From a virus, in the IMG/VR virus record IMGVR_UViG_3300018405_000021, positions 1 to 60,165 of that record: a stretch of 60,165 bases of DNA; one strand, given 5' to 3'. Below the pieces are notes generated by a model. It was not told the DNA's origin and did no database searches. It worked only from the letters and a program-made list of their open reading frames with translations. Both the position numbers and the translations under genes were made by a program. Below, piece by piece: positions 27,442-29,890 of this stretch; within the stretch, counting starts at the first letter, position 1; each line of letters begins with the position of its first letter.

Positions 27442-29890
27442 CCGTAAGACGCAAGAGGATTTGGTCGAGGAGCGGAAAGAGCTTCTCTCATCTCACCTAG
27501 CGTTCACACGGCGGTTCTTTGTCGAGAAGGAAGGCCAACCGTTTTCCGTCGCTGCCTTCCATGAGGTGATGTGTTGGGTTCTCGACCGCGTTTACGCCGG
27601 AGAGATAAAGCGGCTCATCATCAACATTCCGCCAGGGTTTGGGAAGGCGATTGATTGCGATACGCCTATGTTGACGCCTTCGGGGTGGGTAAGAGCCGGA
27701 GATATCCGCAACGGCGATATGCTGCTGGGGTCTGCCGGACAATGGACAGAGGTGACCGGCGTATTCCCGCAAGGGGTTATTCCTGCGTTCACGGTCACTT
27801 TTTCCGATAGATCATCTATTGTGGCGTGTTCTGAGCATCGTTGGGCCGCCCGTCTTCGCGATGGCAGCAATAATTGGCATGCGCCGTGGCAGGTAAAGAC
27901 GACTGATGAACTAGCCCGCGATCTTAGAGAGGCTGATGGGCGTAAGAAGTGGCGCATTCCTGTCTTATCTGACACTCGGTCGGAAGATATTGACCTGCCG
28001 ATTGATCCGTACCTATTCGGGTGCTGGCTTGGCGATGGCCATAGTTATCAGGCCGCGATTACGACGATGGACGCCGATATCATCACGGCATTCTCTGAAT
28101 TTTCCCCTGTTGCCCAAAAACACCAAAACGCGGGACGTGCGACAACATACTCTCTTCGCAACCGTTTCGTGACTAGGCTTCGTGCGCTTGGTGTTTTGGG
28201 CAACAAACACATTCCCAATGTTTATATGCTTGCCAGCCATCGCCAGAGGGTTGCCCTTCTGCAAGGCATATGTGACACGGACGGAACTGTGAATAGGAAA
28301 TCTGGGGGGCAGAGTGTCACGTTATCGTGCAAGGCTCTCTCAGATGACGTTAGATCACTCATCAACAGTATTGGTGGCGTATGGCGGGGTTATGAGCGCA
28401 AGGCTGGCAAGAAGATAGCGTATACGACGATGCTATCCCTTCCCGATGGCGTGTCTGCGTTTAGGCTTCCGCGTAAGAGTATGCGGGTCAATCCTCGGAA
28501 GGCATGCAACATGCCGCGTCGGTTCGTGGACACGGTAGCCAAGACCAGCGACCGTGAAATGGTGTGTTTCACGGTTGATGCAGATGACCATCTCTTCTGC
28601 GCCGGTCGCGACCTTGTCGTAACGCACAATACTGAGCTTGCGGTGATCAACTTCATCGCCCACGGGTTCGCTATCAATCCACGCGCTCGGTTTATCCACG
28701 CGAGTTATGCCGAACCGCTGGCGCTGGATAACTCGACCAAAGTGAAGGATATCATCACCCTTCCTGGATATCAGGCGCTTTGGCCGGTCACTATGCGTAG
28801 CGACACTAATGCTAAGGGCTTATGGCGCACTACGGCAGGCGGTCATCTTCGTGCGTCGGCTGCTGGTATGCCTATCACCGGGTTTCGTGCCGGTATCCTT
28901 GAGGAGAGCGGCTTTACTGGGGCGCTTGTGATCGATGACCCATTGAAGCCTGACGATGCTTCGTCGGAAAAGCTCCGCAAGTTCATCAATGCCCGATGGG
29001 AAAACACATTCCGTTCGCGTCTCGCGCATGAAGACGTTCCGGTTATCGTGATCATGCAGCGCCTGCATGTCGATGACTTCGCGGCGCATCTCATGCAGAA
29101 CTCCGGCGAGCAATGGCACCTGCTGAGCCTTCCTGTCCTGATACAGGGAGAGGTGGAAGCGCCGGGTGGCAATGTGACCGTCATCCCCCATGGCCTTCCA
29201 GATGGACCGCTGTGGGAAGCGAAGCACAACGAGGAGCAGATCAAGGTTTTGCAGTTATCCCCCACGGTTTATGCGGGGCAGTACGCGCAGAACCCGATTG
29301 TTGCCGGTGGTAATCTGTTCAAGACCGATTGGCTTGTTGATTACGACGATCTTCCGCCTCTCAAATGGCGGGCGGTTTACGCGGATACAGCGCAGAAGAC
29401 GAAAGAGCGGAACGACTACACCGTCTTCGAGCACTGGGGCGCAGGCCATGACGGCAGGGCATACCTGATTGATCTTGTTCGGGGGCGGTTTGAAGCGCCG
29501 GAACTTGAAAGCACGGCGCTGGCGCTATGGGCCAAGGCCAAGCTTATGGACCCGCAGCGCTACGGAATGCTCCGCAAGATGAGCATTGAAGACAAGGTTT
29601 CCGGCACGGGGCTAATCCAGTCCCTCCGGCGCAAGGCTATCCCTGTCGTCGCGGTACAGCGCGACAAGGACAAGTACACCCGTGCGCTTGACGTTGTGCC
29701 GCTTGTCGCGTCCGGGCTCGTCTGTGTGCCAAAGATCGCCCCTTGGAGGCAGGCATTCTCGTCTGAATATGCGGCGTTCCCAGATGGTTCATTTGACGAC
29801 CAGATGGACCCGTTCATGGATGCCGTGACGGAAATGTGTGGCGGGAAGTTCTCGCTTTCGATTAGCAGAGAAGCACTCAAGAAAGCATGA
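27383..29890 (+). CDS. terL: terminase large subunit with in-frame intein
   Basis: An 835-codon frame. Mature TerL is residues 1-88 plus 417-835 (507 residues). Walker A PPGFGK/TELA is split by the intein; Walker B is ALVIDDPLKPDDA, the C-terminal RNase H-like nuclease has AVYADTAQKTKERNDYT and DDQMD. It packages DNA by ATP hydrolysis and cuts concatemers. TTG start at 27383 is preceded by GAGGAG; other TTG/GTG codons nearby are possible. Confidence 0.93.
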   Translation: MNVPLSRLELLNAIRAEKNSRKTQEDLVEERKELLSSHLAFTRRFFVEKEGQPFSVAAFHEVMCWVLDRVYAGEIKRLIINIPPGFGKAIDCDTPMLTPSGWVRAGDIRNGDMLLGSAGQWTEVTGVFPQGVIPAFTVTFSDRSSIVACSEHRWAARLRDGSNNWHAPWQVKTTDELARDLREADGRKKWRIPVLSDTRSEDIDLPIDPYLFGCWLGDGHSYQAAITTMDADIITAFSEFSPVAQKHQNAGRATTYSLRNRFVTRLRALGVLGNKHIPNVYMLASHRQRVALLQGICDTDGTVNRKSGGQSVTLSCKALSDDVRSLINSIGGVWRGYERKAGKKIAYTTMLSLPDGVSAFRLPRKSMRVNPRKACNMPRRFVDTVAKTSDREMVCFTVDADDHLFCAGRDLVVTHNTELAVINFIAHGFAINPRARFIHASYAEPLALDNSTKVKDIITLPGYQALWPVTMRSDTNAKGLWRTTAGGHLRASAAGMPITGFRAGILEESGFTGALVIDDPLKPDDASSEKLRKFINARWENTFRSRLAHEDVPVIVIMQRLHVDDFAAHLMQNSGEQWHLLSLPVLIQGEVEAPGGNVTVIPHGLPDGPLWEAKHNEEQIKVLQLSPTVYAGQYAQNPIVAGGNLFKTDWLVDYDDLPPLKWRAVYADTAQKTKERNDYTVFEHWGAGHDGRAYLIDLVRGRFEAPELESTALALWAKAKLMDPQRYGMLRKMSIEDKVSGTGLIQSLRRKAIPVVAVQRDKDKYTRALDVVPLVASGLVCVPKIAPWRQAFSSEYAAFPDGSFDDQMDPFMDAVTEMCGGKFSLSISREALKKA
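27647..28630 (+). mobile_element. class 3 intein with LAGLIDADG homing endonuclease, in the TerL Walker A
   Basis: 328 codons between Lys and Thr of the P loop. It begins with Ala instead of Cys or Ser, has DTPMLTPSGW (block A), His64 and Trp66 in block B (EHRW), LFGCWLGDG (123-131) and LLQGICDTDG (204-213) as the two LAGLIDADG-type motifs, Cys307 at position 4 of block F (VCFTV), and ends VVTHN with Thr326. The Trp/Cys/Thr triplet marks class 3 inteins, which splice through the block F Cys. Confidence 0.92.

Follow-up and report, generated by a model that had tools for sequence, protein, structure and literature searches.

terL locus and intein insertion site

The DNA analysed here is a virus record of 60,165 bases (hereafter the window). 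Its terL gene is a single open reading frame of 835 codons (27383-29890), the product of which matched the large terminase family PHROG 38 (E 6e-96) and Pfam Terminase_6C. The gene lies between those for the terminase small subunit and the portal protein, and is interrupted in frame by an intein (Table 1). The C-extein contains the remaining ATPase part and the Terminase_6C nuclease domain, and family searches indicated that both the Walker A motif and the RNase H-like domain of TerL are preserved.

Table 1. Coordinates of the terL locus and of the intein motifs in the window
Feature	Position	Strand	Description	Basis
Terminase small subunit gene	26977..27441	+	Overlaps the terL start	PHROG 51, E 5e-8
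N-extein of TerL	27383..27646	+	88 codons from TTG, start codon uncertain; ends in Walker A PPGFGK	ORF and alignment with intein-free TerLs
Class 3 intein with LAGLIDADG endonuclease	27647..28630	+	328 aa	Translation, family searches, 6bs8/6rix alignment, AlphaFold2 model and fold matches
Block B	27809..27850	+	Cys61 (B:7), His64 (B:10), Trp66 (B:12, codon 27842-27844)	Alignments
First LAGLIDADG motif, YLFGCWLGDG	28010..28039	+	Residues 122-131, acidic Asp130	Alignment
Second LAGLIDADG motif, LLQGICDTDG	28256..28285	+	Residues 204-213, acidic Asp212	Alignment, Pfam LAGLIDADG_3
Block F	28556..28603	+	Predicted initiating nucleophile Cys307 (F:4, codon 28565-28567)	Aligned with DnaBi1 catalytic Cys118; invariant in relatives
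Block G	28610..28630	+	Ends in Thr326 (G:5), His327, Asn328	Translation, alignment
C-extein of TerL	28631..29887	+	419 codons; the +1 residue is the Walker A Thr	PF17289, PHROG 38
Portal protein gene	29907..31451	+	Downstream of terL	PHROG 146, E 6e-108

The translated intein (AIDCDTPM...VVTHN) corresponds to residues 89-416 of the ORF. The first-pass annotation had drawn these boundaries and had put the insertion point between the Lys and Thr of the P-loop. Both assignments are borne out by the in-frame translation of 328 residues and by the flanks, which match intein-free TerLs (PPGFGK/T). Once joined, the flanks read PPGFGK-TELAVINFIA; PPGYGK-TELAV or a near variant occurs at the identical codon junction in no fewer than 15 relatives devoid of the intein. 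Examples of this empty site are Synechococcus phage Yong-M2-251, the TerL of which is 74% identical to the window exteins, and the IMG/VR loci L183-L194, L196, L198 and L199. Joining of the two exteins would give a TerL of 88 + 419 = 507 amino acids, provided that translation starts from the TTG at 27383; the spliced length of about 507 residues predicted earlier thus agrees with the extein lengths read from the sequence. Both of the LAGLIDADG motifs that had been claimed were also found, with Asp130 and Asp212 intact, and Pfam LAGLIDADG_3 spans intein residues 200-259.

A search for a second intein copy elsewhere in the record found none. The DnaB-like helicase at 17764-19227 gave helicase-family matches along its whole length, with no sign of an intein. 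An identical intein together with an identical TerL occurs on two further contigs. When stretches 1-25000 and 28640-53000 of the window were compared with public phages, almost no similarity was observed except for one 521-base recombinase stretch.

A few other features of the window may be recorded. Three separate predicted DNA methyltransferases (16754-17764, 19696-20742 and 21043-21726) lie inside 5 kb, adjoining helicase genes. A single 784-aa protein (32273-34624) has an N-terminal NUDIX hydrolase-like part and a C-terminal head maturation protease part. On the minus strand, a 790-aa open frame (33524-35896) runs antisense to the head protease and its neighbours; it is probably a by-product of codon composition.

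Class 3 signature of the intein

Class 3 inteins are recognized by Trp at B:12, Cys at F:4 and Thr at G:5, typically with Ser or Thr at +1 (PMC5222942), and this Trp/Cys/Thr triplet is confined to them (PMC7664689). The window intein begins with Ala, and so is devoid of a Cys, Ser or Thr nucleophile at position 1. Ala1, Trp66, Cys307, Thr326 and the terminal His327-Asn328 all occupy the positions given to them in the first-pass annotation, and the intein also has His64 at B:10 and Thr at +1, as class 3 requires.

Class 3 inteins were the top matches in a search against solved structures, namely DnaBi1 of Mycobacterium smegmatis (6bs8, E 7e-13) and DnaB1 of M. chimaera (6rix/6riy). In DnaBi1, His65, Trp67, Cys118 and Asn139 are B:10, B:12, F:4 and G:7, respectively (PMC5222942). 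Trp66 of the window intein aligned on Trp67, Cys307 on Cys118, and the terminal THN on THN. The block F Cys, whose alignment was to be checked, is therefore in register with the catalytic Cys of DnaBi1. As the triplet aligns with that of a biochemically proven member and the fold model agrees, the class 3 assignment is upheld.

We also collected 178 related ORFs from viral, genome and phage collections, using search patterns that excluded the triplet positions. All of the 175 relatives covering Cys307 and Thr326 keep both residues; at Trp66, 174 of 176 have Trp and two have Phe. Although retrieval by similarity favours kin, the presence of the triplet in 174-175 of 178 relatives obtained without those positions in the pattern argues that it is not there by chance. 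The N-terminus of the intein could be mapped automatically in 107 of these relatives (71 were left unassigned), and GK immediately precedes it in 91 of the 107. Judged from these sequences, inteins of this family sit in the P-loop as a rule, whether the host protein is a terminase, a DnaB-type helicase or another ATPase.

L069, L071 and L072 carry class 3-type inteins outside the P-loop (L069 intein at 3001-4026), with flanks QTEHL/CQW; in these, Gln replaces the penultimate His and Cys occupies +1, which is unusual for class 3. The 1270-aa TerL ORF at 2518-6330 of L014 (and likewise L131, a contig from an Acidobacteria MAG) apparently contains two inteins, one of class 3 in Walker A (GK/S) and the other a class 1-like insert that begins with Cys, ends with Ser-Asn before Cys and lies directly before the LLIDDP Walker B motif.

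Structure models

An AlphaFold2 model of the intein, built with 8 flanking residues on each side and 47 aligned sequences, had a mean pLDDT of 92.4 and a pTM of 0.90. VIA-align superimposed this model on 6bs8 over 124 residues (Z 19.6, 1.4 A, 36% identity), and on PI-SceI, itself an intein containing a LAGLIDADG endonuclease, over its full length (Z 27.5, 3.5 A, 331 residues). I-DmoI was also among the Foldseek matches. As modelled, the intein adopts the HINT splicing fold of the class 3 crystal structures. The model of the whole precursor (pTM 0.48) is too weak to place the P-loop in it.

Mobility and selection

The intein has its nearest relatives, all at the same TerL junction, in L007, L017, L008 and L009 (75, 65, 48 and 48% identity, respectively), and these form a five-row clade with the window intein (support 100/99). 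The corresponding N/C-extein identities to the window are 76/60% for L007, 38/41% for L017, 45/50% for L008 and 38/33% for L009. Those carriers that have a reliable position in the extein tree (window, L007 and L017) cluster with intein-free TerLs. The window is placed among such TerLs, its ATPase part being 84% identical to that of L184; L017 clusters with the intein-free L204 and L214, and the site is also empty in L202, which is another relative of L017 (89% in the C-extein). L008 lies amid empty relatives, its placement not being firm. L009, which has a very long branch in the extein tree, and L215-L235, which are misaligned around the insertion point, were left out of this argument.

Between the window and L007, the dN of the intein (0.20) was compared with that of the exteins (0.145-0.166); the intein does not evolve more slowly than its host protein. 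Therefore, 65% intein identity across ∼40% extein identity, with closer intein-free relatives of both exteins, is best read as horizontal movement, and these comparisons suggest that the intein probably moved horizontally into the terL site of the window. Unequal rates could partly account for the incongruence. From the same pair, dN/dS was ∼0.10 in the endonuclease and splicing parts alike, a rough value resting on a single pair with dS near 2, which is close to saturation. The endonuclease part thus appears to be constrained as strongly as the splicing part, and this fits an endonuclease still under selection.

When the L007 TerL (2716-5340) was compared with window 27383-29890, the N-extein and intein were close and the C-terminal nuclease part was much more different, a pattern that suggests a mosaic terminase.

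Proposed splicing and homing

The explanation that we strongly favour, with little doubt, is that the Walker A loop of this phage TerL is interrupted by a full-length, self-splicing class 3 intein whose LAGLIDADG homing endonuclease is intact. The sequences show the anatomy of the intein, its class signature and its precise site, as well as the empty alleles, the purifying selection and the intein/extein incongruence. From proven relatives we infer the splicing chemistry and the inactivity of the unspliced motor, both on good grounds, and the cutting activity.

By analogy with other class 3 inteins, where it has been demonstrated, splicing would be started by Cys307. According to the class 3 pathway (PMC5222942, PMC7664689), Cys307, aided by His64 and Trp66, would attack the peptide bond that links the P-loop Lys to Ala1, giving the class-specific branched thioester. 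The acyl group would then be transferred to Thr+1, i.e. the P-loop Thr, and cyclisation of Asn328 followed by joining of the exteins would yield the 507-residue TerL with its GFGKT loop restored. The P-loop Thr would thus have two functions, first as a nucleophile in splicing and then, in the spliced protein, as the Walker A Thr that coordinates Mg; such a double role has been described for the P-loop Ser of DnaBi1 (PMC6195587). The conserved P-loop codons of intein-free terL are the probable target of the endonuclease, whose cutting would allow the intein to home into such genes.

The unspliced protein has 328 residues between the Lys and the Thr of its P-loop, and so should be unable to hydrolyse ATP or to drive packaging until it has spliced. 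The dependence of packaging on splicing that the first-pass annotation had proposed is thus likely, and it agrees with the argument of Kelley et al. for mycobacteriophage TerL (PMC5050341) and with the case of the RadA precursor to which PMC6195587 refers.

Could the insert then have been retained as a regulator, and not only as a selfish element, delaying TerL activation through redox- or metal-controlled splicing? A disulfide on the block F Cys controls the class 3 intein DnaBi1 (PMC6195587), and reversible inhibition of DnaB splicing by zinc has been reported (PMC7360933). The window intein has Cys61 (B:7) and Cys4, and Cys61 is common to L007, L008 and L017. However, Cys61 is present in just 23 of the 178 relatives, many relatives are devoid of the intein so that such control is dispensable, and TerL inteins tested elsewhere splice readily (PMC5050341). 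We consider such a regulatory role unlikely. A still somewhat less probable version is that of a redox- or metal-sensitive packaging gate, in which Cys61, and perhaps Cys4, would trap Cys307 and TerL would stay inactive until conditions suit; it is speculation that Cys61, placed by its block B position near the active site, might form a redox pair with Cys307.

It is very improbable that the intein is decayed or splicing-defective, the contig being a dead or rare variant. A class 3 pseudogene intein is reported from Arthrobacter FB24 (PMC3196547). In the window, by contrast, every splicing residue and both endonuclease acidic residues are intact, dN/dS is about 0.1, the same intein and TerL recur on two further contigs, and Walker A and the RNase H-like domain of TerL are preserved. 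Least probable is that the intein belongs to class 1 or class 2 and begins splicing independently of its block F Cys: an N-terminal Cys or Ser is absent from class 2 inteins too, but Ala1 excludes class 1 chemistry, the class 3-only triplet (PMC7664689) is present and aligned with proven members, and class 3 inteins typically have Ser or Thr at +1 (PMC5222942), so both classes were rejected on account of Ala1 and the triplet.

Relation to known inteins

Terminase inteins have been reported at seven ATPase-domain sites, one of which, TerL1-a, falls between the invariant Lys and the Thr that follows it; five terminase inteins were shown to splice and two to cut empty alleles, and class 3 phage inteins were treated in detail in that study (Kelley et al. 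2016, PMC5050341). The window intein resembles the mycobacteriophage TerL1-a in its Lys/Thr insertion site, but the phage group differs and, set beside TerL1-a hosts, the window TerL has the Terminase_6C nuclease domain. DnaBi1 and M. chimaera DnaB1 are alike in splicing residues and fold (Z 19-20), and DnaBi1 also sits in a P-loop; these two, however, are mini-inteins without an endonuclease in a helicase, whereas the window intein has an intact LAGLIDADG domain and lies in a terminase.

Public phage records contain class 3 terminase inteins too, for example in Gordonia Sampson gp2, Escherichia ECD7 gp17 (T4-like), Clavibacter CN1A and Microcystis Mwe-JY05. These have the Trp/Cys/Thr triplet together with LAGLIDADG motifs, and lie at the Lys/Thr or Lys/Ser junction of the P-loop or next to it; they are, however, only ∼31-32% identical to the window intein and their terminase families differ. 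The TerL inteins of phiCbK-like phages occupy the P-loop Lys/Ser junction but have Pro at position 1 (PMC3556154), and that of CcrColossus, read by eye, has the block F Cys but Phe at B:12 and Val at G:5. The public phage collection held no intein more than 60% identical to the window intein.

Inteins were already known both between the P-loop Lys and Thr of TerL (Kelley et al. 2016) and, as members of class 3, in phage terminases and in the P-loops of helicases. Only the lineage of the window intein is new; its kind and site are ordinary, and it leaves existing knowledge of inteins unchanged. It is a clean P-loop class 3 example, with an endonuclease that appears from its sequence to be functional, with empty alleles, and with incongruence across several terminase lineages. 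Together with its relatives, it forms a natural set for studying homing between phages and whether an insert in the P-loop blocks the packaging motor before splicing.
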